Source of the DNA: Exiguobacterium acetylicum DSM 20416
GTDB lineage: Bacteria > Bacillota > Bacilli > Exiguobacteriales > Exiguobacteriaceae
Assembly: GCF_000702605.1 (NCBI RefSeq)
Contig: NZ_JNIR01000001.1
Span: 1,292,501-1,356,500 of the forward strand
Length of the DNA: 64,000 bases
Direction: 5' to 3'
The notes beneath the pieces are model-generated. The model did not search any database. It saw only the letters and a program-made list of their open reading frames with translations, and was not told the origin of the DNA. The stretch's first letter is position 1, and each line of letters opens with the position of its first letter. This document shows, piece by piece, positions 4,399 through 46,767 of this stretch. Both the position numbers and the translations under genes were made by a program.

Positions 4399-4740
4399 TT
4401 AAATACCTATCTCTTCTTTACTAGAATTTTCGATATACAGTTCCCCATCAAATGTCGTCAAGGCAATCACTTTCCCGTCTTTTTCATACCACGCCGTTGC
4501 GCCTTCACGATCGAGTTCTTTCCAATCGGCTTGGCGAATCCGAGTCCCATAGAGTAAACCCGGTCCGTCAGTTTCCGAGACTAGACGGGTTTTGATTTTC
4601 CACTCGCCTTGTTTTTCAACTGCCGTAGCAAATCGCGGCACCGGAAAACCGGATACTTTTGATTCTTGAAATCCAGCATACCAACTACCGATGACTACAA
4701 TGAGCCCAAGACATACAATGGCGATCCATTTCTTCTTCAT
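4399..4740 (-). CDS. Secreted or membrane-anchored hypothetical protein
   Basis: A 113-residue protein. MKKKWIAIVCLGLIVVIGSW is a basic N-terminus followed by a hydrophobic segment (signal anchor or signal peptide). The rest (about 85 residues) is soluble and probably extracytoplasmic, with WKIKTRLVSE and GKVIALTTFDGELYIE beta-like stretches. I chose the ATG at 4740 because AGGAG sits 8 bases upstream; a longer frame back to 4806 lacks an RBS. First gene of the three-gene cassette. Unknown family. Confidence 0.65.
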   Translation of the reverse strand: MKKKWIAIVCLGLIVVIGSWYAGFQESKVSGFPVPRFATAVEKQGEWKIKTRLVSETDGPGLLYGTRIRQADWKELDREGATAWYEKDGKVIALTTFDGELYIENSSKEEIGI

Positions 4741-5062
4741 AAGTATTCTCCTTTTACTTTCCATCTTCATTTTAAAATTACCAAAAAATAGTTTAATTTC
4801 CCTCATCCTAAAGGCGGATTACTGATTTTTTAGTTGTGAAAACATATGAAAATTGTTTCGAATTTATGAAAACATCCAAAAAAATTTCAATTTTTTTCAT
4901 AAAAAATGCACACCCCTGTTCGTCCTTAGAGTAGCAACGGTTTGACAACTCCCGGCACAGAGCCGTTTTCAGTCGTTTTCAATTGATTAAGCGCATTAGC
5001 AACTTGACTTCATTTCCTGCTATGGTACGATACGAACTTATCAAAGGGAGTGAACAGAACTT
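4741..5062. other. Divergent intergenic region, 322 bp
   Basis: A/T-rich spacer between the minus-strand cassette and the plus-strand MFS gene. It must carry both promoters. The stretch 4855-4910 is unusually rich in A and T tracts. I see no gene or strong hairpin in it. Confidence 0.5.
5004..5031 (+). promoter_or_regulatory. Candidate sigma-A promoter of MFS transporter
   Basis: TTGACT at 5004-5009 and TACGAT at 5026-5031 with a 16-bp spacer, about 30 bp before the start codon and its GGGAG RBS. Confidence 0.5.
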
Positions 5063-6448
5063 ATGAAATTCAGAAAAGAAAAAGTCAATGTCGTTGACAT
5101 GCAGCAAACCAAAAAGAGTGTCTACGCGACCGGAATTGGGAATGCGATGGAATGGTTCGATTTTGGTCTTTATTCCTATCTCGCAATCATCATCAGTCAA
5201 AACTTCTTTAGCGCTGTTGAAAATGATGAACTGAAGCTCGTCTTTACTTTTGCGACGTTTGCGATCGCTTTTTTAATGCGACCAATCGGCGGAATCGTCT
5301 TTGGACGCATCGGAGATCGACTCGGGCGGAAGGTCGTCTTAACAACGACGATCGTCATGATGGCTGGTTCCACGCTCATCATTGGTCTATTACCGACCTA
5401 CGATCAAATCGGAATTTGGGCACCGATCCTGTTATTGTTAGCCCGGATTTTACAAGGATTCTCGACTGGCGGTGAATATGCCGGCGCAATGGTCTACATC
5501 GCTGAGTCATCACCAGATAACAAACGGAGTGCCCTCGGAAGTGGACTTGAAATCGGTACACTCGGTGGATATATTCTCGCCTCATTACTGGCTACAACAC
5601 TTTTCGTCACCTTATCGGATGATCAAATGGCATCTTGGGGATGGCGGATTCCCTTCATTCTTGGAGCACCACTCGGTTTATTTGGTCTCTATTTACGTCG
5701 TCACTTGGATGAATCACCGATCTTCGAAAATGAGATTAATGAAAACACAGAAGAGCCTGCGACATTCCGCGAAATTCTTCGCGACCACAAACGTGATATC
5801 ATCGTTTGTTTCATCGCTGTTGCCTTCTTCAATATTACGAACTACATGCTCTTGTCCTACATGCCATCGTACCTCGATGAAGTCATCGGCATGTCAAGTT
5901 CGACAAGTACGATTCTAATTACTGGGGTCATGGTGATCATGATTCCGCTCGCTTACTTCTTCGGGAAGCTCAGTGATAAAAAAGGGAATCGTAATATCGT
6001 CCTTTTCGCGTTAGCCGGACTATCGTTGCTTTCAATCCTGTCGTTCTTCTTGATTGGTCTTAAACCACTCTTTTTCGTCGGAATCGGGATCTTCATCCTC
6101 GGCTTCTTCTTGGCGATCTTCGAAGGAACGATGCCAAGTCTTCTACCGAGTATCTTCTATACGGATGTCCGTTATCGGACACTATCCGTGACGTTCAACG
6201 TCTCGGTCTCGATCTTCGGTGGAACGACGCCACTCGTTTCGACTTGGCTCGTCCATACGACACAAAATCCGCTTGCTCCTGCTTTCTATCTAACAGCAGT
6301 CAGCGTCATCGGATTCGTCACGTTCTTCTTCTTCTTTAAAAATACAGCCGGAAAAGCACTTAAAGGATCGCATCCGACTGTATCGAGTGAAAAAGAAGTC
6401 GCATCAATCGCGAAGAAACCAAACGATGCCCTCTGGTGGGCAGAATAA
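5063..6448 (+). CDS. MFS transporter, ProP-like metabolite:H+ symporter
   Basis: A 461-residue major facilitator of the metabolite:H+ symporter (ProP/KgtP) family. The family hallmark [15 protein letters not shown] lies near residues 27-41, the loop motif [10 protein letters not shown] near 85, and about twelve membrane segments follow. Known relatives import proline, betaine, citrate or 2-oxoglutarate. The C-terminus (about 35 residues after the last helix) lacks the long coiled coil of E. coli ProP, so osmosensing by that route is unlikely. GGGAG supports the ATG at 5063. Monocistronic, closed by a strong terminator. Substrate unknown. Confidence 0.88.
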
Positions 6449-6464
6449 TTGCTAGCTATAAGTA

Positions 6465-6497: not shown

Positions 6498-7127
6498 TTA
6501 GACAGCACTCAACTCTTTTACGACTCGGTCCGCGACTGCGAGTTCCTGCTCTTGTGCAAAATCGAACTGACAACCGATCGCAGCGAGCCCGTTTGCATGC
6601 GCCGCTTTGAAATCAGATAAGCGGTCACCGACAACGTAGCCTGACGAGATATCGTGCATCTTACAAATCTCCCGTACGAGTGCTGATTTATCACCGGAAC
6701 GAATGTCTTCAATGCTATAGACATGATCGATATACGCTTCAAGTCCATACGTCGTCACGATTGCTGACAAGTAGGATGGCCACCCATTACTGGCGATATA
6801 GACGGAGTGACCCGCTTGTTTCAAACGAGCGAGCAACTCGACCGTTCCTGGATATAAGCGACCGTTCCCCGCTTTGACTGCCTGCTCTAAGCTACGTCGA
6901 AACTTGTGATCCGCAGCCTGTTGGTCTGTGGCTGAAAAGTCCGGTAGTAACGTCTGCCAGACTTCCGGTAACGAGACGCCCATGATCTGCTGATAGAGGG
7001 CGAGTGGGGTTTCCCCCTCCCAGCGTCCCGTTTGACGCAACTCTTGAAAGACCTCTTCTAGCGCATGCGACAGCACGGCATTCGTTTGAAACAACGTTCC
7101 ATCCATATCAAAAATGTAGTGTGTCAT
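6498..7127 (-). CDS. HAD-family phosphatase
   Basis: Haloacid-dehalogenase hydrolase of 209 residues, phosphoglycolate-phosphatase-like subgroup. Motif I is DMDGTL at residues 8-13, motif II is SNG, and motif IV is VVGDRLSDF (about 167-175). A helical cap is inserted at about 20-85. Substrate not predictable. It overlaps the upstream kinase by 4 bases (ATGA), so it is the last gene of a coupled three-gene operon. Confidence 0.88.
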   Translation of the reverse strand: MTHYIFDMDGTLFQTNAVLSHALEEVFQELRQTGRWEGETPLALYQQIMGVSLPEVWQTLLPDFSATDQQAADHKFRRSLEQAVKAGNGRLYPGTVELLARLKQAGHSVYIASNGWPSYLSAIVTTYGLEAYIDHVYSIEDIRSGDKSALVREICKMHDISSGYVVGDRLSDFKAAHANGLAAIGCQFDFAQEQELAVADRVVKELSAV

Positions 7128-7618
7128 TCGCTCTCCCCTTTTTGCTCTTGATTTATCATTTGAATCACGGATTCTATCGATCTATCCTCAGCAATTAGAC
7201 GATCTGTCGGGCGGTGATCCCGATCAATCCACCAGCGTTTCATATCCGTCACAGAAAACTCCGTGGGCTGGCGCATTTCATGGCGACGAACCGTTTCTTC
7301 AAATGAGACGTCAAAATAATACGCCGCGTACCGTGAAGTAAAGCGTCGTTCCAACCGGTCAATCATCTCACCGTACCAGTTCTGTGCAAGAATTCCTTCC
7401 AGCAGAATCGTCGCGTGGCGTCCGTCAGCAAGTCCGATCAACTCTTCGATCCAGCGAATCGCCGGATTTCCTGGTCCATCTTTTACGTTCAACATCTCCC
7501 TGCGGATGACATCTTGCGAGAATAAGATGCTATCCGGTAAGACCGATCGTAACGCTTTTGCAAGCGTCGTTTTTCCACTACCAGAATTCCCACGGATGAC
7601 GATCAAGCGCGACTTCAT
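7124..7618 (-). CDS. P-loop kinase / AAA ATPase
   Basis: A 164-residue nucleotide-binding protein with Walker A GNSGSGKTT at residues 10-18. A DVIRRE element and a lid-like RRHEMRQP region resemble small-molecule kinases (shikimate, gluconate or zeta-like). The substrate is unknown. Both ends overlap the neighbouring genes by 4 bases, so it is made together with the MBL protein upstream and the HAD phosphatase downstream. Confidence 0.8.
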   Translation of the reverse strand: MKSRLIVIRGNSGSGKTTLAKALRSVLPDSILFSQDVIRREMLNVKDGPGNPAIRWIEELIGLADGRHATILLEGILAQNWYGEMIDRLERRFTSRYAAYYFDVSFEETVRRHEMRQPTEFSVTDMKRWWIDRDHRPTDRLIAEDRSIESVIQMINQEQKGESE

Positions 7619-8427
7619 GTCGTGAACCAGTCCCCGTTTAAGGCAGCAATGTACCGCTCTGCAGAGCGCGCTACTGCTTCAGACGCACCGGTTTCGATTT
7701 TCCGATGAAAGGCGTCATATAATTTTTCAAAGTGAAGCGGACGTAACGTTTCTGCCATTCGCGCGACCGTCTTTGCCGGAAGCGGAATCACATTCGGATA
7801 GCTGTACATGAAACTGACCCATGCCCGATCGGCAACGATCCGAATGATGTCTCCTGTCAACAATAGCCCCGCTGACGCGTCTTTTCGTTCACAAATGACT
7901 GCTCCTTTGAAGTGACCACCGACGCGATGTAACATCACATCTTCTGCTAACTTCAATCGTTCACCACTCCAGAAGACGATACGCTCGCTTGGTCGTGTCA
8001 CGAACGACGCATCATCTTCATGAATATAGATCGGTACGTCAAAAGTCTCCGCCCATTCGACTTGTGTCGCGTAATAATGCGGATGTGATAAAGCAATCGC
8101 CTGAATCCCGCCCAATTCGTCAAGTTGCTCTTTCGTTGCGGAATCAAGATATGTAATGCAGTCCCATAACAGGTTGAACGATTTTCCTTGGACAAGATAT
8201 GCCGTCTGACCGATACCGAACGACGGTGTCGTCTGAATCGCATAGACGCCTGCTCCGTCGTCACTAATGACATTTTGATACGTTCCTGATTGTTGCATCG
8301 CATCGAGCGTCGTCCACGTTTGACCGGTTGGATTGACATACTGTCGTTCCTCTAAGCAAATCGGGCATGTTTCGCGCTCTGGATTGATTTGTTCAACACC
8401 ACACGTCGTACAGATGATGGTTTCCAT
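7615..8427 (-). CDS. MBL-fold hydrolase with N-terminal zinc ribbon
   Basis: A 270-residue metallo-beta-lactamase-fold protein. The N-terminus has two CxxC knuckles (CTTC and CPIC, within residues 5-24), a rubredoxin-like zinc ribbon. The MBL part keeps SHPHYYATQ, GGHFKG and LLLTGDI, but the first motif lacks the usual D-H of HxHxDH, so the metal site may be reduced. I chose the ATG at 8427 (AAAGGA 8 bases upstream) over a TTG at 8445. First gene of the overlapping MBL-kinase-HAD operon. Confidence 0.82.
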   Translation of the reverse strand: METIICTTCGVEQINPERETCPICLEERQYVNPTGQTWTTLDAMQQSGTYQNVISDDGAGVYAIQTTPSFGIGQTAYLVQGKSFNLLWDCITYLDSATKEQLDELGGIQAIALSHPHYYATQVEWAETFDVPIYIHEDDASFVTRPSERIVFWSGERLKLAEDVMLHRVGGHFKGAVICERKDASAGLLLTGDIIRIVADRAWVSFMYSYPNVIPLPAKTVARMAETLRPLHFEKLYDAFHRKIETGASEAVARSAERYIAALNGDWFTT

Positions 8428-8556
8428 CTCATCATTCCTTTCCAATTCGTAAATGATTTTCCTGATATATCATACCATATTCCATTTATAGGGATTGGAG
8501 GGATTAAGAGGCGGTTATCGAAAGGAACATGTATGAAAACAAAGGAGGAGATTCTG

Positions 8557-8941
8557 ATGTCAATTTCGACCCACCTCATTACGCCCCGCTTGAACGCTGT
8601 TTTTTTTGCATGTTCAGGATGTGAAACGTGCCGCCGCTTGGTATCACCAGTTACTGCAGCTGCCGTTTGATGCTTCGCGCGTCTCGTCACCTGTCTACAA
8701 TCTTCCACTTGAGGGTCCAACGAGTTTGACGCTCGATGATCATACGAATGACGCAACGTACCGACATCACCCTTCTCCCCATGCCTTGTTTAATTTTTAT
8801 ACGACGGACATCGATGCATCCTATCAGTTTGTGCGGTCACTACACGCACCCATCATTCGAGACATCGAACGTTTCGATGACTTTGCTTACTTTACGTTTT
8901 CGGATCCTGACGGTAACGTCTTGATGCTCTGTACAGGGTAA
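8557..8941 (+). pseudogene. VOC/glyoxalase-family protein, frameshifted at a T8 tract
   Basis: A small vicinal-oxygen-chelate protein of about 127 residues once repaired. The gene starts at 8557 with AAGGAGGAG upstream, but the frame breaks at a run of eight T (8600-8607). The start frame runs MSISTHLITPRLNAVFF and stops soon after; the body HVQDVKRAAAWYHQLLQLPF through FSDPDGNVLMLCTG is in the next frame. Removing one T gives NAVFLHVQDVK, the expected VOC beginning. So it is a pseudogene, a slippage-controlled gene, or a sequencing error. Confidence 0.8.
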
Positions 8942-10436: not shown

Positions 10437-12752
10437 ATGAAGTGGCTCTCATCAAGTATGTTTCATCGATTTTATATCTTGTTACTCTCAAATTTCTTGA
10501 TTTTTGCAAGCATTGGCGCCCTAACCTTTTACTTTTCTCAAAAAGAACTCGAGCAACACCGTGCTTCATCTCAAGAAATAACACTACAAAAAACGAAAGC
10601 TCGTACGCTTTGGAATGAAGCACAGCAAGTAAATCTTCAAATTCAACAAGTTGACTTTAATGATCAATCTGATCTCAAGCAGGTCAAGCAGCGGTTGGAA
10701 CGTTTTCAACGACAGGTTCAATCATTTAATCAACGCTACTCAAATCCAGCGGACGAACGCTTTATACATCAACTCGTTCAATTTGCGAGATTTTTGGAAC
10801 TGGAACTCACGTTGCAAGTACTCACGGATAATCAAAAGCTGGTTCAACAATCTGACTCCTCTATCAATGACTATTTTCGATTGATTCATGATGAAGAGCG
10901 AAAAGCGCAACAGTCACTACAACAAAGAACCGTTGAAGTTTTACGTTATGCTTTTGGTGTGATGATCATCGCTTTTTGCCTTCTCAGTTACTTGATTTTA
11001 CGACTTGTGCGGTCTTTTCGAACGGACTTACTCGATCTCGTCGATCAAACGAAACAACCTGATCGATTGGAACATCATGATTTCCAGAACCGCCACGATG
11101 AGATTGGTTCACTTGGGCGATCGATGCAACAAATGACGACATTGCTCGCATTTGAACATCAGCAAACGCAAGCTGTTAATTCACAACTTCAAGAGTCTTT
11201 CTATCAACAAAAAATAATTGAGCGACAACTTCAATTTCAAAACCAGTTAGCTACTCAAATTTTACGCCATCAATCAATGTCAGGTCTTCACACTTGGCTA
11301 CAAGCAATCGGTAGTCATTTTCGGGCGACGCATATCCATTTTTCACCACAGTCGGAAAGTTTTGAACCTGTACATATCGCCTTATCAGACGAACCGACAT
11401 TTGACCAAGAGCGGCTAGAGTTAGAAGCGAAGACTGAGTTAGATACATCGCTCCATCTAATCGAGAAGGAACAATCGACGTTGTGTGCTCTCCCTTTACA
11501 CAGTCCGTCAAAATTCATTGGTACATTGACGTTACAATTTCATCATCGTTTCACCGAGACAATCGCACTTCAGAAAACGACACATTTATTAAATATCGGA
11601 TTGATGCGGTTGCTTGATGATATCCGTATAAAAGATCATCATCAATTAATTCAACGTATCTTAAATGGTCTTCGAGAAGCTATATTGTTCGTCGATGTGA
11701 CGAACACAAATATCTTTACGAATCACATGTTCCATCAATTGTTCCCGAACTGGTCACCTTCTGAAAAACAATCCGAAAACTTAGCATTCGTCATCGAAAC
11801 TTTCGAACCGTTGATTCTCGAAACAGATGCGTTATATGCCTATGTCGAACAAATCAAAGCAGGCTTTGAGCACGCAACAGTCGTTCCTGCTCAGGATTTT
11901 TCAATGTCAGACGATCGTCATGTAAGACTTTATACAGAATTTTTGTCCGATCGACAAGGGATTTTATTTGTTTTTCGTGAACGTACGGTTGAAGTCAATT
12001 ATGCCAAAAGGGAGCAAAATTTCATTTCGGTTTTATCTCATGAGCTACGAACGCCGCTTGCGTCCATTGAAGGGTTTAGCGAACTGATGTTACATCGGAC
12101 GTTGTCTCCTTCAAAACAGCGCAAATATCTAGAGACGATGCGGAGTGAGACACAGCGACTTAGTCAACTGTTAACCGAATTCCTTGATTATCAGCGACTC
12201 AGTCATCAAAAAGAATCATATCAGTTAGAATCATTTTGCATCGAACATATGCTCATTGAGTTAACGGAATGGTTGAACGTCACGACATCGACGCATCATA
12301 TACAAATCGAAAGCGATGGTCCTTGCCTGATCACGGCTGATCCAGAAAAAATCCGGAGAGTCTTATTAAACCTCCTGAATAATGCAATAAAGTACTCTTC
12401 AGCCGGTTCGAACATTCAGGTCTCGTTAGCGTGCTGTGAAGCTGAAATCGTCATCACCATTAGCGATGACGGGTATGGTATTCCCAAAAAAGATCTTCCC
12501 CATCTGTTTGATCCATATTACCGCGTCGAACATGAAGATCATCTCCAAGTTCAAGGAACAGGTCTCGGTTTACCGATTTGTAAGGAAATCATTGAAGCGC
12601 ACGGCGGACGGATCACCGTTCATTCAGAAATCGAAAAAGGATCCGACTTTTTTATCCGTTTACCTCGTGATGAAGAGTGGAACACAACCAATAACATGTA
12701 TAAGAACAGTATGAATAATCTACAACTAGGAAGTGAAGAAAGTGGAAGCTGA
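10437..12752 (+). CDS. Membrane sensor histidine kinase
   Basis: A 771-residue hybrid-free sensor kinase. TM1 is at about 13-33, followed by a helical extracytoplasmic segment (about 34-170), TM2 (about 171-190), HAMP (about 190-245), a GAF-like region (about 260-395) and a PAS-like region (about 400-515). HisKA has the phospho-acceptor His535 in SHELRTPLASIEGF. HATPase_c (about 630-750) has DDGYGIPKKDL and GTGLGLPICKEI. No response regulator is encoded in the window, so it is an orphan kinase. RBS AGAGG. It overlaps the next gene by about 11 bases and heads a likely four-gene operon. Confidence 0.92.
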   Translation: MKWLSSSMFHRFYILLLSNFLIFASIGALTFYFSQKELEQHRASSQEITLQKTKARTLWNEAQQVNLQIQQVDFNDQSDLKQVKQRLERFQRQVQSFNQRYSNPADERFIHQLVQFARFLELELTLQVLTDNQKLVQQSDSSINDYFRLIHDEERKAQQSLQQRTVEVLRYAFGVMIIAFCLLSYLILRLVRSFRTDLLDLVDQTKQPDRLEHHDFQNRHDEIGSLGRSMQQMTTLLAFEHQQTQAVNSQLQESFYQQKIIERQLQFQNQLATQILRHQSMSGLHTWLQAIGSHFRATHIHFSPQSESFEPVHIALSDEPTFDQERLELEAKTELDTSLHLIEKEQSTLCALPLHSPSKFIGTLTLQFHHRFTETIALQKTTHLLNIGLMRLLDDIRIKDHHQLIQRILNGLREAILFVDVTNTNIFTNHMFHQLFPNWSPSEKQSENLAFVIETFEPLILETDALYAYVEQIKAGFEHATVVPAQDFSMSDDRHVRLYTEFLSDRQGILFVFRERTVEVNYAKREQNFISVLSHELRTPLASIEGFSELMLHRTLSPSKQRKYLETMRSETQRLSQLLTEFLDYQRLSHQKESYQLESFCIEHMLIELTEWLNVTTSTHHIQIESDGPCLITADPEKIRRVLLNLLNNAIKYSSAGSNIQVSLACCEAEIVITISDDGYGIPKKDLPHLFDPYYRVEHEDHLQVQGTGLGLPICKEIIEAHGGRITVHSEIEKGSDFFIRLPRDEEWNTTNNMYKNSMNNLQLGSEESGS

Positions 12753-13047
12753 TTTAAATCAAATCGTTCGCTGTTTAAATCAAGATTTTAAACAGCAAAA
12801 AACTGTCTTCAGTGCAATACCCTTAAAAGAGACCAATCCCTGCATCGTCTTGATGGAAGATCACCGTAAAAGACGGATGGAGGATGCCTTGTATCAATAT
12901 CCTGATTTCATCGCAGAGTTGGAATCACTCATTTATCGTTGTTTAATTGATGTCCGGGGAGCCCGTGAATCAGCCTCCCCTTCGGAGATTTTTATCTCTA
13001 AAGCCCAGCTTTATTCGCCGTATCATTATTTAGTCACCTTTTTATGA
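12742..13047 (+). CDS. Hypothetical protein coupled to the histidine kinase
   Basis: A soluble protein of about 101 residues without recognised domain; NPCIVLMEDHRKRRMEDALY and SLIYRCLIDVRGARESASPS are its main features. It starts inside the kinase gene. GTG at 12742 (AGGA 10 bases upstream) is preferred over GTG at 12733, which is only 2 bases from the same AGGA. The overlap implies translational coupling, so a role tied to the kinase is plausible but unproven. Confidence 0.6.
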   Translation: MEADLNQIVRCLNQDFKQQKTVFSAIPLKETNPCIVLMEDHRKRRMEDALYQYPDFIAELESLIYRCLIDVRGARESASPSEIFISKAQLYSPYHYLVTFL

Positions 13048-13059
13048 GAGGAGTCCGCC

Positions 13060-13611
13060 ATGACTGTTCAAGAAAATACAGCATTGTTGATCATCGATGT
13101 CATCAATAAGATGGATTTCGAAGGAGCTGAGCAGTTATTGCAACAGACGCTCCCTGTCCTCGAACCACTCTCAAAATTAAAACAACATTGTAAACGTCAA
13201 AACATCCCAGTGATTTATGTCAATGATAATTTTGGTCTGTGGCAAGAGAATGTTAACCAAATCATTGATGAGTGCCGCGGTGGTCTTGGCGATGTACTCA
13301 TCGAAACAATGCACCCAGAAGAGAACGATTACTTCATCATCAAGCCAAAACATTCAGGCTTTTTCGGGACCCAACTTGATATTTTATTGAAGCATTTGGA
13401 AGTCTCACGTCTTATCATCACCGGTCTAACGACAGATATGTGTATCTTATTTACTGCAAACGACGCTTACATGCGAGAATATGCTATTCATGTTCCTGAA
13501 GACTGTACGGCAGCAGAAACCGCCGTTGCAAAAGATCATGCTTTAGAAATTCTCAGTTCGACATTATCTCTTGATTGCTCTTCAAGTTTAAGTTTGATGA
13601 AGGGGGAATAA
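13060..13611 (+). CDS. Isochorismatase-like cysteine hydrolase
   Basis: A 183-residue member of the isochorismatase/nicotinamidase fold. The acid residue is in LLIIDVINKMDF, the lysine in PKHSGFFGT, and the nucleophilic cysteine in GLTTDMCILFTANDA. The order D-K-C is as expected for this family of amidases. Substrate unknown. AGGAG RBS; 12 bases after the previous gene and 2 before the next, so it is in the kinase operon. Confidence 0.88.
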   Translation: MTVQENTALLIIDVINKMDFEGAEQLLQQTLPVLEPLSKLKQHCKRQNIPVIYVNDNFGLWQENVNQIIDECRGGLGDVLIETMHPEENDYFIIKPKHSGFFGTQLDILLKHLEVSRLIITGLTTDMCILFTANDAYMREYAIHVPEDCTAAETAVAKDHALEILSSTLSLDCSSSLSLMKGE

Positions 13612-35892: not shown

Positions 35893-36441
35893 TCAACCAT
35901 GTTCAATATAAAATCCGCTCCAATAAACCTGACGATACGTAAACTCTTTTCCACTCTTCGTCGTCACAAGCATCTCATCTTCTGCCATGACGGCGATTTT
36001 AATGGGTACTTCACCGTGATCCGTCAAATAATTGAGGATCTCAAGATGCCGATTCAACCAAAGACGACGGCGGAACCAACGAAAACGACTGAATGCCGCA
36101 CTGAAGTGGAGTAAGGCAAGCGCAAGGATAATTAAAGCAAACGGAAGTGGAATATCGAACAACGCAATCAAATATACATCTGCGATCAGCAAGGATAACG
36201 AGAGACCCATTTCCGTCATCTCCATGAAAGATGCTTTATAGGTCGCAAAGTAGGTCATCACACGAAATAGGAAGATGACCGTGAGGTACGGTACGAAGTA
36301 CATTTGAAACACATGGTCCGTGCCGCTGTTGACGAACATGAGCAGTGGCAGGAAGAATAGCAATTTCCAGATTAGGATGGCGGAATAAAATAAAGTATGA
36401 TCCGTGTAGCGTCTGCGTACGATGGCTTGACTCATATTCAT
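35893..36441 (-). CDS. Integral membrane protein, unknown
   Basis: A 182-residue protein with four hydrophobic segments (about residues 18-36, 46-65, 80-98, 102-122), followed by a cytoplasmic, roughly 55-residue tail with a beta-rich end (MLVTTKSGKEFTYRQVYWSG). AAGGAGG is 8 bases from the ATG at 36441; the longer frame to 36474 overlaps this RBS. Unknown family. Confidence 0.7.
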   Translation of the reverse strand: MNMSQAIVRRRYTDHTLFYSAILIWKLLFFLPLLMFVNSGTDHVFQMYFVPYLTVIFLFRVMTYFATYKASFMEMTEMGLSLSLLIADVYLIALFDIPLPFALIILALALLHFSAAFSRFRWFRRRLWLNRHLEILNYLTDHGEVPIKIAVMAEDEMLVTTKSGKEFTYRQVYWSGFYIEHG

Positions 36442-37844: not shown

Positions 37845-37880
37845 CCAACTCTATGCTTCACTTTGAAAGGAAGTACACCA

Positions 37881-38210
37881 TTGTCCATGAAACCAATCGT
37901 TCCTCTTGAATTATTCGATGCTTTAGATATACGTGTTGGTACAATCCAGTCGCTTTCGGATCTTACCGATGGCTCAATTCAGCTTGAACTACAATTCGAC
38001 GGATTTACGCGTTTATTCTCACTCGAGTGGGAATCACTGCGACCCGATGTCCATGAATTGCTTGGAAAACAAGCGATTGCTGTACTCAATATACCCGGTC
38101 GTACGCCTGAAGAGTCCGGTCGGGTGCTTGAGATCGGTCGCTCGGAACAATGGATGCCGATTCTCGTCGTACCGGAACATCCGATTCCGGAAGGAGCACG
38201 TGTCGAATAA
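37881..38210 (+). CDS. CsaA-like tRNA-binding-domain protein
   Basis: A 109-residue OB-fold protein. LFDALDIRVGTIQSL matches the start of CsaA/EMAP-type tRNA-binding domains, and IAVLNIPGR...LEIGR and VVPEHPIPEGARVE match the end. The central KQSSAQIT-like strand of CsaA is replaced, so it is a divergent member. CsaA binds tRNA and has chaperone-like effects. TTG at 37881 (AAAGGA 9 bases upstream) fits spacing better than ATG at 37887. Probably co-transcribed with the oxidase upstream (36 bases). Confidence 0.72.
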   Translation: MSMKPIVPLELFDALDIRVGTIQSLSDLTDGSIQLELQFDGFTRLFSLEWESLRPDVHELLGKQAIAVLNIPGRTPEESGRVLEIGRSEQWMPILVVPEHPIPEGARVE

Positions 38211-38300
38211 GGCATATCATTTAGAAAAACACTCCCCTGTGTCGCTTCGTAACGGAAGCTTACTGAACTGAACCAAAAATGTTAGACAATAAATAATTTG

Positions 38301-39190
38301 TCAGGCGACCTTGAGGACCTGAGTCCGGTATTCCACCGGGCTCAGGTTTTTTAGTCGTCTCTTGATACGACGATGGTTATAGTACTCGATGTAAAGCTCG
38401 AGCTCACATTTGAAGTGGTCCATGTCATCGAACTCCTTGAGATACAGGAGCTCTGACTTGAGCACAGCGAAGAAGCTTGTTGTCGAGGCAGTTGCCCTTA
38501 CGGGACATGCTTTGCGTAATGCCGTGCTCGTGAAGCGTACCGACGAACGCTCGATATTGATAATGCCACCCTTGGTCGGAATGCAGAATCGGTCGGGCTT
38601 TCCCGTCGAGCTTCCCGATTGCCTGATCCAACATTTCACCAACGAATTGATAGGTAGGGCGGTCCGATAGGGTATAAGCAATGATCTCACGATTTCCCAA
38701 GTCCATCATCGGCGAGAGGTAGAGTTTCTCCCCGAACAGGTGAAACTCAGTGACGTCAGTCACCCATTTCTGGTTCAGGCCGGTGGCCTTGAAGTCACGT
38801 TGGAGAAGATTCGGTGCGACCTTTCCGACCCGTCCTTTATAGGAGCGGTATCGCTTCATACGGACAAGACATTTTAGACCGAGCTCATTCATGAGACGGC
38901 GTACGGTCTTCGGATCGTGCCAGAAGCCTTGGCGTTCGAGAAGTGCGTGGATGCGACGATAGCCACATCGTCCCTCGTGTTCGTGGAAGAGAGTATGGAT
39001 AGCTGTCTTCACCTCCGCATACTTGTCCTCGCCCGTCAGGCGCGTCCGCCAATAGTAATAGACGCTTCGTGCCATACCGAGCACGCGAAGGAGTCCCGGA
39101 ACGGGATAGACTGACCGCAATTCGTCGATTACTTGTGCCTTGATCCGGTTCGTCGCGCATTCTCTTCTTGAACCAAGGCTTTCAATTTTT
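38301..39190 (-). pseudogene. IS3 OrfB transposase, frameshifted with lost catalytic Glu
   Basis: Integrase-core (rve) domain. DDE residues 1 and 2 are present (WVTDVTEF and HSDQGW), but after [10 protein letters not shown] the sequence jumps to [15 protein letters not shown] in another frame. The intervening codons that in relatives read about AAAE are missing (about 11 bases at 38477), which removes the third acidic residue and shifts the frame. OrfB is entered by -1 frameshift from orfA. Confidence 0.85.
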
Positions 39191-39638
39191 TTAACGCAGC
39201 GTTCTCCATCTCGAGATACTCAATCCGCTCTTTGAGCTTCTCGACTTCTGTCATCTCTTCAAATTCCTTCTTCTTGCGTCTCGCCATCGGGGCACGTCCT
39301 TTCGGTCTGGCGACCAGACCTGCGGTCCCTTCCCGTTCATACGTCGATCGCCACCTCGAGATCGTTCCTGGGGAAGAAATTCGGTACTTTACGGCCGCCT
39401 CTATATTGGACAGCCTGTTGGTCACCATGTCGTTTAATACCTCCAGTTTAAATGCCAGCGAGTGGCTTGTATAGGAAGGATCGAAGATCGTTTCCCCCCA
39501 ACGCTCATAGAGACGCGACCACTCGCGGATCAGTTCACGTGCTATCCCGAATTCTATCGCTACACCTCGGTATCCGTCTCGTCCTGTCAGATAACGCTCA
39601 GCGACTTGGACTTTAAACGCCTTTGTATATTTGACCAT
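39129..39638 (-). CDS. IS3 OrfA (helix-turn-helix)
   Basis: A 169-residue protein with two HTH units ([35 protein letters not shown]...TISRW) and a C-terminal leucine-zipper-like helix ([20 protein letters not shown]), as in IS150-type OrfA. I chose the ATG at 39638. Confidence 0.85.
39186..39192 (-). other. Programmed -1 frameshift site of the IS
   Basis: On the minus strand a run of seven A in TTAAAAAAATTG lies within the OrfA leucine zipper. Slipping by -1 continues [20 protein letters not shown] and joins OrfB without a stop. This matches the A-rich slippery sites of IS150-type elements. Confidence 0.75.
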
Positions 39639-39646
39639 AAAAAACA

Positions 39647-39686
39647 CCCCATAAAAGTTGGATTTTTATGTCCAACTTTTATGGGG
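39647..39686. repeat. Perfect hairpin at the right end of the IS
   Basis: CCCCATAAAAGTTGGA (39647-39662) and its exact complement (39671-39686), loop of 8. It includes the right terminal repeat and lies just before orfA; it could block readthrough transcription or affect orfA translation. Confidence 0.8.
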
Positions 39687-39725
39687 CAGTTCATCATTCA
39701 AGCGGGAGTGTTTTTAGATATGCCA

Positions 39726-40682
39726 TTACATTTTTTCTAAATAATGTACGCTAAATCGTTCATCGTCATCGATCCAGCAATTGACCGGATGAAAACCACT
39801 TTTAAGGGCAAGTGTCTCAAACTCTTCTTTACTGTATTTATAGGAGTTTTCCGTATGAATCGTTTCTCCTTGTTTAAACGGAACCGTCACATCTCCAACT
39901 TGTACGAGTTGATCGAGTTGACTCCGAAGATGCATTTCGATTCGTCCTTTTTCCTCATTATAAAAAGCATGATGTTCGAATCGCGTCACATCAAATGTTC
40001 CCTCAAGCATCTGATTCAAATGCGTCAACATATTCAAATTGAATGCTGCTGTGACGCCGGCTGCATCATTATAAGCTCGTTCAAGAACGTCAACAGACTT
40101 TTTCAAATCGACCCCGATCAAGAATCCATCTCCTGTTTCAAGAATTCGTGAGGAATGACGTAAGAAGCGCATCGCTTCCTCAGGTTCAAAGTTTCCGATC
40201 GTCGATCCCGGGAAAAAAATGACTCGTTTTTGAGACTCCTCGACCGGTAAAGAAATCGATTGTGAGTAATCCCCACAGACCGCTTTAATATGCAGCGCAG
40301 GATACCGTTCCGACAATTGGCGTGCAGATTCCATTAAGAAATCTTTTGAAATATCGATGGGCATATACGTGTCTAAATGTGTAAATGTCTCCAGTAACAT
40401 TTGGATTTTACGACTGCTTCCACTTCCATATTCAATCAGTGTATGCACATCCCCGATACTTCGTGCGATTTCCGCTCGATGTTGCTCCAAGATGGCGAGT
40501 TCTGTTCGTGTCGGATAATATTCCGGTTGTTGCGTAATCTGTTCGAACAGCTGGGATCCGATGTGATCATAAAAATATTTTGCCGGTAAGACCTTTTGTT
40601 CTTGCAACAGACCTTCGATGACTTCTAAACGCATGTTTTGTTGCGGCGTATATAAATCGTAACCTATTACTGTTTCCCGCAT
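39726..40682 (-). CDS. egtD: L-histidine N(alpha)-methyltransferase EgtD
   Basis: A 318-residue SAM-dependent methyltransferase that trimethylates histidine to hercynine, the first step to ergothioneine. LPAKYFYDHIGSQLFEQIT and QPEYYPTRTE are the histidine-site hallmarks, LIEYGSGSSRKIQ (about 83-95) is the SAM loop, and FFPGSTIGNFEPEEA follows. The C-terminal IHTENSYKYS is conserved. The ATG at 40682 overlaps the egtB stop (TGATG), so translation is coupled. AGGTGA 6 bases upstream. Confidence 0.94.
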   Translation of the reverse strand: MRETVIGYDLYTPQQNMRLEVIEGLLQEQKVLPAKYFYDHIGSQLFEQITQQPEYYPTRTELAILEQHRAEIARSIGDVHTLIEYGSGSSRKIQMLLETFTHLDTYMPIDISKDFLMESARQLSERYPALHIKAVCGDYSQSISLPVEESQKRVIFFPGSTIGNFEPEEAMRFLRHSSRILETGDGFLIGVDLKKSVDVLERAYNDAAGVTAAFNLNMLTHLNQMLEGTFDVTRFEHHAFYNEEKGRIEMHLRSQLDQLVQVGDVTVPFKQGETIHTENSYKYSKEEFETLALKSGFHPVNCWIDDDERFSVHYLEKM

Positions 40683-41962
40683 CACATGTCACCTGCCAAT
40701 CGGAAGCCGCCAAATAACCAACGTTTATCAGGCGGGAAGAAGTTACGGTATGTCTCGCGAATGTGATCGTCAGGCGTCACGCACGCTCCTCCACGCAGTA
40801 CCATTTGATTACACATGAACTTCGCATTGTATTCCCCGAGTGCTCCTTCAAGCGGTTTACTGCCTGGATATGAACTATAAGCGCTCGACGTCCACTCCCA
40901 GACGTTTCCGAACATGCTCGCAAGCGTCGTCTCTGACTCTTCGACGGCTACCGGATGGAAGGTCCCGCTTCCCATCATATTACGCTTCGTGACAGAATCG
41001 ACTTGGCGAGAAGCCCATTCCCACTCTGCTTCTGTCGGCAACCGTTTCCCTATATAACGACTATAAGCATCCGCCTCATAAAAACTGACGTGACAGACCG
41101 GTTCATCGAGACGAAGAGGTTCGACACCATTCATCGTAAAGATCGTCCACTCCCCTGCTTCATCCTTCATCCAATATAACGGTGCTTTCCAGCCTTCTTT
41201 TTGAACCGTCGAAAAGCCGTCGGACAACCAGTATTCTGATTTTTCATAGCCCTCTGCTTCAATGAACGCCAAATACTCTCCATTCGTGACAGGACGCGTC
41301 GCGAGTTTAAACGGATACAGCCACGTTTTATGACGTGGACTCTCGTTGTCAAACGCAAAACCGTCTCCTGTATGACCGATCTCGACGAGTCCTTCCTCGA
41401 ATTGGATAAAAGATGTTTCCTTGACTGCATTTTCAGGCACATCTGTTGCCCGCGACTTTGACTGATAGGCAAGTAACAACGGATTCGTAAAAAAGTTATT
41501 CTTCACGTCCATCAAGATCAATTCCTGATGTTGTTGTTCGTGTTGTAATCCCATCTCGACTAATGCTTCGATTTTTCGTTGGTCTTCTGGAGTTCGATCT
41601 TCCTTCAAGAACTCGATCATTTGTCCATCGACATATGACCGGTAAGCAATGATGTCTTCGACGGTCGGACGTGACAGCATTCCTCGTTGTTGACGAGGTT
41701 GGTAAGGACCGATCGAGTTATAGTACGAGTTGAATAGATAATTGTACTTCGGATGGAAGACGCGATAGTCTTCACTATATTCCTGTAGTATCATTCGTTC
41801 AAAAAACCAGGTCGTATGGGCGATATGCCATTTCGGTGGACTCACGTCGGAACTTGCCTGGATGACGAAATCCTCCGCTTCGAGTGGTTCGATCAAGGCG
41901 ATTGTTTGATTACGAACAGTGGAAAATTTTTCAATTAAGTAAGATGTCGTTTCAAATAGCAT
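40682..41962 (-). CDS. egtB: Ergothioneine synthase EgtB (iron-dependent sulfoxide synthase)
   Basis: A 426-residue non-haem iron enzyme that joins hercynine to a thiol (gamma-glutamylcysteine or cysteine) with oxygen. The N-terminal DinB-like domain contributes the iron ligands: His in PPKWHIAHTTWFFE (about 48) and the HxxxH motif in LQHEQQHQE (about 138-146). The C-terminal FGE-sulfatase domain has RLPTEAEWEWASR, GNVWEWTSS and VLRGGACVTP. ATG at 41962 with AGGGAG 8 bases upstream. No egtA, egtC or egtE in the window. Confidence 0.94.
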   Translation of the reverse strand: MLFETTSYLIEKFSTVRNQTIALIEPLEAEDFVIQASSDVSPPKWHIAHTTWFFERMILQEYSEDYRVFHPKYNYLFNSYYNSIGPYQPRQQRGMLSRPTVEDIIAYRSYVDGQMIEFLKEDRTPEDQRKIEALVEMGLQHEQQHQELILMDVKNNFFTNPLLLAYQSKSRATDVPENAVKETSFIQFEEGLVEIGHTGDGFAFDNESPRHKTWLYPFKLATRPVTNGEYLAFIEAEGYEKSEYWLSDGFSTVQKEGWKAPLYWMKDEAGEWTIFTMNGVEPLRLDEPVCHVSFYEADAYSRYIGKRLPTEAEWEWASRQVDSVTKRNMMGSGTFHPVAVEESETTLASMFGNVWEWTSSAYSSYPGSKPLEGALGEYNAKFMCNQMVLRGGACVTPDDHIRETYRNFFPPDKRWLFGGFRLAGDM

Positions 41963-42085: not shown

Positions 42086-43069
42086 TTAATATACTTTATC
42101 GCCGTTGAAGATCGAGTTCTTGACGACAACGTAGTCGACCGTCCGAATCGCCTGCAATTTGTTCCCACCAGCGTACGAGATTGCCGATTGTAAATCTTGC
42201 TCCATCTCGATCAATGTATCCGCTAGACTTCCTTTATGCTCGACGAACATTTTCTTTCCTTCGACGTTCTTGCGTTCCCCTTTTTGGAACTCAGAAGCAG
42301 AACCGAAGTATTCCTTGACGAGCACTCCGTCCACTTCATGTGTCTCACCAGGCGATTCTTCATGCCCTGCGAAGAGTGAACCGATCATGACCATCGACGC
42401 ACCGAACCGGACTGACTTCGCGATATCGCCATGCGTCCGAATCCCACCATCAGCAATAATCGGTTTACTTGCTGCTTTTGCACACCAACGAAGTGCCGCG
42501 AGTTGCCAACCACCTGTACCGAATCCTGTCTTAATCTTCGTGATACACACTTTACCTGGTCCGATCCCGACTTTTGTTGCATCGGCTCCCGCATTCTCAA
42601 GTTCACGCACCGCTTCCGGTGTTCCGACGTTACCAGCGATGACGAAACTTTCTGGTAGAAGCGACTTGATGTGGCGAATCATCTGAATGACGGCTTCCGA
42701 ATGACCGTGCGCGATATCAATCGTGATGTATTCCGGAGTCAGCCCTTCTGCTGCGAGCTGTTCGATCAGCTGATATTCCTCTTCCTTGACACCGACGCTA
42801 ATTGAAGCGAACAGTTGGCGTTCTTGCATCATACGAACGAATGCCAAACGACGAGCCGGTTCGAATCGATGCATGATATAGAAATAATCGCCTTCCGCTA
42901 AGAACAAAGCGATCGATTCATCAATGATCGTTTGCATGTTTGCCGGTACGACTGGAAGCTTGAAACGACGACCACCGAACTCGACTGACGTATCACATTC
43001 CGAACGACTACCAACGATTGATTTTGCTGGAATTAATTGAATATCTTCATAATCGAATACTACATCCAT
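42086..43069 (-). CDS. guaC: GMP reductase
   Basis: A 327-residue IMPDH/GMPR-fold enzyme that converts GMP to IMP with NADPH in purine salvage. The catalytic cysteine loop is [17 protein letters not shown] (about 178-194). [15 protein letters not shown] and [13 protein letters not shown] bind the nucleotide phosphate. No CBS domains, so GMPR not IMPDH. ATG at 43069 with AGAGGTG 6 bases upstream. Monocistronic with its own promoter. Confidence 0.94.
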
Positions 43070-45600: not shown

Positions 45601-45702
45601 TTTCATTTTCCATTCATCGTCAGTTGGAATTGCTTCTCATTTTTCATTCCGTTACACTTGAGTGGTACATATTTTCTGAAAATTCAAGAAGGAGTGTTCC
45701 TC

Positions 45703-46767
45703 ATGACGGTTTATAACTTCTCTGCCGGTCCAGCAGTCCTTCCTGCCCCGGTCCTATTGAAGGCTCAATCCGAGCTACTCGATTATGAAAATTCAGGACA
45801 ATCCGTTCTTGAAATGAGTCATCGTTCGCCAATCTTCGAATCGATTCGGGAGGCAGCTGAACAATCCTTACGGAGACTGATGTCGATTCCCGATTCGTAC
45901 TCCGTATTGTTTCTTCAAGGAGGAGCTACACTTCAGTTCGCGATGTTACCGCAAAATCTGGCAACGAAGACCGGACGGATTGATTTCATCGATACCGGCG
46001 GCTGGTCGACGAAGGCGATTGCAGATGCAAAACGGTACGCCACGGTCAACGTGCTCGCCTCTTCCGCTGATCACGGGTATCGCTTCATTCCAGAAGGTCC
46101 GTTCACGTCAACAGCCGACTATTTGCACATCACTTGGAACAATACCCTCGAAGGGACGACGTATCAGACACCGCCTCATGTCGATGTGCCACTCGTCGCT
46201 GATGTCTCGTCATCGATTTTGTCTGAACCATTGCCAATCGAGTCATTCGATGTGTTGTATGCTGGTGCTCAAAAAAACCTTGGTGTCGCCGGTTTAACGG
46301 TCGTCATCGTGAAGAACGAGTTGCTTGATCGTGTTCCTGACACGATCGGTGCCTACTTACGGTATGACATCCATGCAAAACAGCGATCTCTTTATAACAC
46401 GCCACCGACGTTTAGTCTTTATATGACGAAATTAGTGCTCGATTGGATTGAAGAGACGGGACTCGAGACGATCGCGGCACGAAACGTCTCACAAGCGCGC
46501 ATGTTATATGAAGCAATTGATCAATCCGATCTATTTCATAACCATGTAGCCGTCAAGGATCGAAGCCGGATGAACATTCCATTCTCGACTGGAAGCGAAT
46601 CGGAAGACGCTGCTTTCTTGAACTTCGCTGCGCGTCACGATTTGATCAATCTTGCCGGTCACCGCTCGATTGGTGGAATGCGCGCGAGTCTTTACAATGC
46701 GATGCCGACCGAAGGGGTTACAGCACTGCTTCATATCATGCACCGTTTTGAACAGGGGGAACGTTAA
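45703..46767 (+). CDS. serC: Phosphoserine aminotransferase
   Basis: A 354-residue class-V aminotransferase (PLP) that makes 3-phosphoserine. NFSAGPAVLPAPVL at the N-terminus is the family signature, the PLP lysine is in YAGAQKNLG (about 190), and HRSIGGMRASLYNA lies near the end. ATG at 45703 with AAGGAG 8 bases upstream. First gene of the serine operon serC-serA-DUF1015; the next start follows without a gap. Confidence 0.95.
   Translation: MTVYNFSAGPAVLPAPVLLKAQSELLDYENSGQSVLEMSHRSPIFESIREAAEQSLRRLMSIPDSYSVLFLQGGATLQFAMLPQNLATKTGRIDFIDTGGWSTKAIADAKRYATVNVLASSADHGYRFIPEGPFTSTADYLHITWNNTLEGTTYQTPPHVDVPLVADVSSSILSEPLPIESFDVLYAGAQKNLGVAGLTVVIVKNELLDRVPDTIGAYLRYDIHAKQRSLYNTPPTFSLYMTKLVLDWIEETGLETIAARNVSQARMLYEAIDQSDLFHNHVAVKDRSRMNIPFSTGSESEDAAFLNFAARHDLINLAGHRSIGGMRASLYNAMPTEGVTALLHIMHRFEQGER

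Follow-up and report, generated by a model that had tools for sequence, protein, structure and literature searches.

In one paper, Firmicutes are described as importers that take ergothioneine up through EgtUV, and its synthesis is attributed to actinomycetes, cyanobacteria and select fungi, besides Methylobacterium and Burkholderia. In the five-gene mycobacterial pathway (egtABCDE), EgtB is of type I (structure 4x8b). In Methylobacterium, whose EgtB is type II by published grouping (PMC11993508, PMC12071650), egtB and egtD are reported to stand in tandem, with egtA, egtC and egtE at separate genomic positions, and deletion of egtBD is reported to have abolished ergothioneine. The type II EgtB of Chloracidobacterium thermophilum (structures 6qki, 6o6l and 8qf6) is stated to prefer cysteine (PMC10903977; PMC11993508), and a type II EgtB was reported to be functional in E. 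coli without EgtC (PMC11993508). According to a review (PMC12071650), the phylum Firmicutes includes homologues of egtB and egtD, and on the Exiguobacterium plasmid pE52 the two genes have already been annotated by name. A title and abstract search limited to open-access literature, which is not proof of absence, returned no study of ergothioneine in Exiguobacterium; no open-access study was found of ergothioneine with Fictibacillus, or of Bacillales with egtB.

The window (the whole stretch of 64,000 nt from Exiguobacterium acetylicum DSM 20416 that was analysed) carries a tandem egtB-egtD pair like that of Methylobacterium (Table 1). Whereas EgtUV of Firmicutes serves uptake, these are synthesis genes. 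Both reading frames were intact, at the coordinates given by the first-pass annotation, and the egtB stop and the egtD start overlapped in ATGTGATG (1 nt when counted from ATG, 4 nt with the upstream GTG as start). EgtB matched the equivalog model TIGR03440 with 563 bits (cut-off, 360) over model positions 2-413 of 413, and EgtD matched the equivalog model TIGR03438 with 424 bits (cut-off, 290.9) and Pfam Methyltransf_33 with 393.6 bits. Among 14 control genomes, a weak EgtB match was found in four and a weak EgtD match in one, and none exceeded either cut-off; the profile matches of both genes are far beyond chance. The pair had been described as compact and translationally coupled, and with whole, overlapping frames above both equivalog cut-offs this description stood. 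The guaC-like gene is a syntenic marker that lies outside the ergothioneine pathway, and the csaA-like small gene gave no Pfam match. No tRNA was found in the 64-kb window. Rfam returned no RNA element for egtBD between positions 36000 and 46000; its sole match was a cspA thermoregulator RNA (RF01766, 44809-45164; 81.1 bits, cut-off 78) at a small ORF resembling a cold-shock protein gene.

Table 1. Features of the egtB-egtD locus and its surroundings (positions in the window).
Feature	Position	Strand	Remarks
egtB, hercynine-cysteine sulfoxide synthase, type II by homology	40682-41962	-	426 aa; TIGR03440
egtD, L-histidine N-alpha-trimethyltransferase	39726-40682	-	318 aa; TIGR03438, Methyltransf_33
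guaC-like gene 5' of egtB, with an IMPDH/GMP reductase domain	42086-43069	-	Pfam IMPDH, 214.9 bits
csaA/tRNA-binding-like small gene, convergent, syntenic marker	37863-38210	+	NCBIfam weak, best 24.7 bits (cut-off, 117)
IS3-type insertion sequence	~38264-39693	-	~1.4 kb; Pfam rve, HTH_21, HTH_28; terminal repeats; empty sites at 6 loci
IS transposase orfA	39129-39647		ORF in the IS3-type element
IS transposase orfB, two overlapping frames	38301-38690 and 38425-39120
Hairpin terminator arms between egtD and the convergent small gene, with the IS in the loop	~38225-38263 and 39694-39715		Compared with empty sites L035 and L049

Active-site typing of EgtB, proposed in the first-pass annotation as a means of predicting the thiol donor, pointed to type II. 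Among solved structures, the Chloracidobacterium-type chains 8qf6, 6qki and 6o6l (the last labelled EgtB (Cabther)) gave 487 bits, with the window EgtB aligned from residue 13 to its end, versus 125 bits for the mycobacterial type I enzyme 4x8b, 97 for SenA, 93 for OvsA and 81 for EgtB-IV. Residues H49, H141 and H145, invariant in all 12 aligned Bacilli EgtBs, aligned with positions 62, 153 and 157 of the C. thermophilum enzyme, which we take to be its iron ligands; the ligands had been called intact, and they are. The pair Y80-Y81 was likewise invariant in 12 of 12 Bacilli rows and aligned with Tyr93-Tyr94 of the C. thermophilum enzyme, and the pair was missing from the 4x8b row of the structure alignment. 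According to a review (PMC10903977), the Tyr93-Tyr94 pair is essential. As judged from its sequence, EgtB is a type II enzyme of the Chloracidobacterium kind, and by homology to that type it would use cysteine as its donor. It has the family, the type, the iron ligands and the Tyr-Tyr pair in common with the C. thermophilum enzyme, and direct use of cysteine is expected; the two organisms belong to different phyla, and the donor of the Exiguobacterium enzyme is predicted by homology. Membership of the SenA family (348 bits, under the cut-off of 420) and of the OvoA family was rejected by the profile cut-offs.

EgtD scored 218 bits against its mycobacterial counterpart (4pim). The residues Y38, Y55, N164, Y204, E278 and S280 aligned with mycobacterial Tyr39, Tyr56, Asn166, Tyr206, Glu282 and Ser284, and all 10 EgtDs of the alignment had the same residues at these six histidine-site positions. 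For SAM, the glycine-rich motif GSGSS aligned with mycobacterial GSGTS. The sites for both substrates had been reported as intact, which was borne out for histidine by the six residues and for SAM by the motif.

A profile search of the whole genome at E 0.001 returned nothing for EgtA or EgtC, and no protein exceeded the EgtE cut-off (TIGR04343; best score 91 bits, cut-off 400). The absence of egtA, egtC and a recognised egtE, first stated from the window, thus extends to the genome. The best EgtE match was a SufS-type cysteine desulfurase, and the other three of the four weak matches were a kynureninase and two proteins of the NifS/IscS type, one of which had only 269 aa and passed none of the cut-offs shown. 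Because equally weak matches to the EgtE model were found in all 14 control genomes, they are uninformative. SerC, a class V aminotransferase encoded at 45649-46767, was considered as a hidden EgtE and rejected, since it scored 471.7 bits as phosphoserine transaminase (cut-off, 253) and EgtE was not among the matches listed for it. The first two reactions are the same as in mycobacteria by family, whereas EgtB is only a distant relative of the mycobacterial enzyme and neither EgtA, EgtC nor an above-threshold EgtE was recognised in the genome; in Methylobacterium, by contrast, all three genes are reported. The lack of EgtA and EgtC is expected, and no special donor is needed, because type II EgtB is reported to take cysteine. 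The first-pass statement that the sulfur donor and the lyase must differ therefore holds relative to the five-gene mycobacterial pathway, and the donor is no puzzle for a type II enzyme.

The arrangement of the locus was conserved across the genus. In all 17 other chromosomal loci, egtD followed egtB and a DAO-family gene lay beyond egtD; the csaA-like gene sat between egtD and the DAO gene in 16 of them, and guaC adjoined egtB in 15, the remaining two being cut by contig ends. The neighbours of guaC differed in G005, the only genome of the genus that lacks the pair, and in 18 sister-genus loci (18 of 19 compared; at one the contig ended next to guaC). The window EgtB was 71-96% identical to its 17 chromosomal orthologues. 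Compared with three close relatives, the dN/dS of egtB was 0.048-0.066 and that of egtD 0.029-0.042; these values were close to those of serC (0.055-0.071) and the DAO gene (0.052-0.093) and exceeded those of guaC (0.016-0.031). Synonymous distances to four distant relatives were for the most part saturated or nearly so. Both egtB and egtD are under purifying selection.

In a careful EgtB tree of 55 rows, hand-picked from the 109 collected and with the genus thinned to 8, 18 of the 19 Bacilli rows formed one clade (98/95; bootstrap unsettled), and the genus was nested inside it (100/100). In a quick tree of 108 rows, a Bacilli clade of 29 rows had an SH-aLRT value of only 88, and L058 fell outside it. 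Holding all 19 Bacilli rows as one clade was not rejected (p-AU 0.438), nor was such a clade shown. For EgtD, a tree of 95 rows, from 96 of which one was too short, needed two changes for Bacilli and placed the plasmid copy nearest to non-Bacilli rows. Rows from outside were the best 80 of 454 confirmed stretches, a broken egtB (L060) was left out of the EgtB trees, and roots were midpoints for drawing. Phylogeny had been suggested as a check for transfer; EgtB placed the genus within a Bacilli clade, and EgtD required two changes. We conclude that egtBD is an old core chromosomal locus of the genus within a Bacilli EgtB lineage, with no recent import; a transfer at an earlier date, at the base of the genus, may have taken place.

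The distribution sample consisted of 398 genomes of the class Bacilli, 19 of them from the genus itself. EgtB and EgtD each exceeded their cut-offs in 18 of these 19 genomes; because G005 lacks both genes, the pair is not essential. In the sister genus, EgtB exceeded the cut-off in none of 19 genomes, and a profile search returned no EgtD match. Over the whole sample, EgtB was above the cut-off in 26 genomes and EgtD in 23; some EgtB match at E 0.001 was found in 103 genomes, mostly to the FGE-like part, and an EgtD match at this level in 34. Outside the genus, 8 of 379 genomes had EgtB and 5 of 379 had EgtD above the cut-off, and one of the eight EgtBs (G215) was broken by stops. The first-pass view that the genes are uncommon in Firmicutes is upheld for Bacilli, the class that this count covers.

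The insertion sequence had been noted as lying directly behind egtD, and its end was indeed 32 bp from the egtD stop. Its terminal repeats were imperfect (16/20), no perfect target-site duplication was seen by eye in the junctions, and the split of orfB over two frames is read as decay. In relatives, the gap holds a terminator-like hairpin common to egtD and the convergent small gene; at the empty sites L035 and L049 the hairpins folded at -27.0 and -22.8 kcal/mol (z, -6.2 and -6.9). Judged by ORF spacing, no IS-sized insert stood behind egtD in 16 of the 17 other chromosomal loci, and one had a different element. In that locus (G004; L038, about 4735-6455), another IS3-type element occupied the corresponding terminator loop, and its transposase was 41% identical. 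The egtD terminator loop has thus been hit twice in 18 chromosomal loci, in two species and by two different IS3-type elements. The window IS matched only two records of the plasmids collection, both from Exiguobacterium. It is an incidental insertion and, lying in the terminator loop, explains nothing about egtBD beyond the repeated insertion into the loop.

We consider it very probable that Exiguobacterium has a working, O2-dependent and cysteine-using ergothioneine route beside bacillithiol, encoded by an old core locus of the genus. BshC was found in the genome (387 bits, cut-off 265.8), so bacillithiol is probably present. EgtD would trimethylate histidine to hercynine with SAM, and the type II iron enzyme EgtB would join hercynine to free cysteine with O2, giving hercynylcysteine sulfoxide and requiring neither EgtA nor EgtC. 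A PLP-dependent C-S lyase of the host, other than a recognised EgtE, would then release ergothioneine, which would presumably act as an antioxidant. That the pathway instead ends with hercynylcysteine sulfoxide or hercynine, or mainly leaks one of them, for want of a dedicated lyase, so that its product is another metabolite or the betaine itself, seems improbable. Such an outcome would agree with the failure to find EgtE above the cut-off in the genome and with the gene content next to the pair in the syntenic loci, where the guaC-like, csaA-like and DAO-family genes include no obvious lyase; it is countered by the PLP cysteine desulfurases present in the genome, by ergothioneine-making cyanobacteria, which are likewise reported to have no identified egtE (PMC10295655), and by the strong selection on egtB, which argues for a useful end product. 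We give even less credence to a donor other than cysteine, such as gamma-glutamylcysteine, bacillithiol or a selenium donor. BshC and the probable bacillithiol of the host could be cited for it, as could the score of EgtB against SenA, yet that score is under the SenA cut-off, whereas EgtB far exceeds its own (563 versus 360 bits); moreover, EgtA and EgtC had no match in the genome, and the nearest relatives of known structure belong to type II, for which a preference for cysteine is reported.

Any hint of recent transfer tied to the IS in the first-pass annotation was not supported. That the pair was recently acquired as a mobile unit, delivered or maintained with the IS, is very unlikely, although the element lies directly behind egtD, a divergent pair resides on a mobilizable Exiguobacterium plasmid, and all 19 sister-genus genomes are without EgtB. 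All 17 other genus loci are syntenic and 16 have no IS-sized insert there, comparison with the empty sites places the insertion of the IS in a terminator loop, the window EgtB is far closer to its chromosomal orthologues (71-96%) than to the plasmid copy (55.6%), and the EgtB clade of Bacilli points to a long-standing presence. On the grounds of synteny, empty sites and the tree, recent transfer with the IS was rejected. The egtBD pair is real, well defined and ordinary in kind, consisting of known enzyme families conserved in one Bacilli genus. With its compact egtBD of the cysteine type, such a genus would offer a simple model in which to study the role of ergothioneine beside bacillithiol and to ask which enzyme performs the last step in the absence of EgtE.

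Better leads than the window pair are a plasmid-borne egtBD redox island and those Bacilli that have egtB and no egtD. The mobilizable plasmid pE52 of Exiguobacterium alkaliphilum (L145, NZ_CP073102.1, 10001-17501) carries a second, divergent egtB-egtD pair, followed at 12229-13572 by a gene for a glutathione-reductase-like (GR-like) flavoprotein; genes for OsmC, glutaredoxin, thioredoxin and peroxiredoxin lie close by. Judging by these genes, the region would be an ergothioneine/redox island. Its EgtB is the copy 55.6% identical to the window EgtB, and the same genes occurred on a contig of G016 (L050), where EgtB was identical over 412 columns. A GR-like flavoprotein was found in 8 of 108 loci; close relatives of the plasmid protein (57-64% identical) lay near egtB in L055 and L060, whereas four non-Bacilli loci had distant relatives (25-37%). 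An FMN-reductase-like or flavodoxin-like protein was found near egtB in 6 of 108 loci (L050/L145, L053, L057, L065 and L103; L050:6868-7500, L053:8274-8900, L057:6059-6799); it was 60-72% identical among Bacilli and 50-56% in L103, a Bacteroidetes bin. Neither protein occurred in any of the 17 chromosomal egtBD loci of the genus, and GR-like homologues in the genus chromosomes were only 40-42% identical, with nothing closer in 18 genomes besides the plasmid copy of G016. The flavoproteins passed none of the 25 NCBIfam cut-offs listed for each, and the FMN-reductase-like protein was likewise below all named cut-offs. That the GR-like flavoprotein acts as an ergothioneine-disulfide reductase is a guess; a text search of open-access literature listed no such enzyme.

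In three Bacilli genomes (G243, G219 and G148; L055:4139-7793, L057:6059-9154 and L059:6667-7848), EgtB exceeded the cut-off and EgtD had no match in the genome at E 0.001. In G243 and G219, egtB adjoined a gene for an OpuAC-type (betaine-)binding protein, which among solved structures scored 188 bits against acetylcholine/nicotine-sensor binding proteins, 164 against ProX and 152 against EgtUC. Relatives of this protein, 28-34% identical, occurred in 10 of the other 106 loci. Scavenging of hercynine would fit a lone egtB beside an OpuAC-type protein. It is conceivable, if doubtful, that Bacilli have their own cysteine-type ergothioneine lineage with a recruited, unrecognised C-S lyase, operating beside bacillithiol; some members would have dedicated redox partners (the GR-like and FMN-reductase-like proteins encoded near egtB, in one case on a mobilizable plasmid), whereas other members would retain a lone egtB, next to a betaine-binding protein, that thiolates scavenged hercynine. 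At the locus of G215 (L060, about 6588-8865), the egtB broken by stop codons stood beside an intact egtD.
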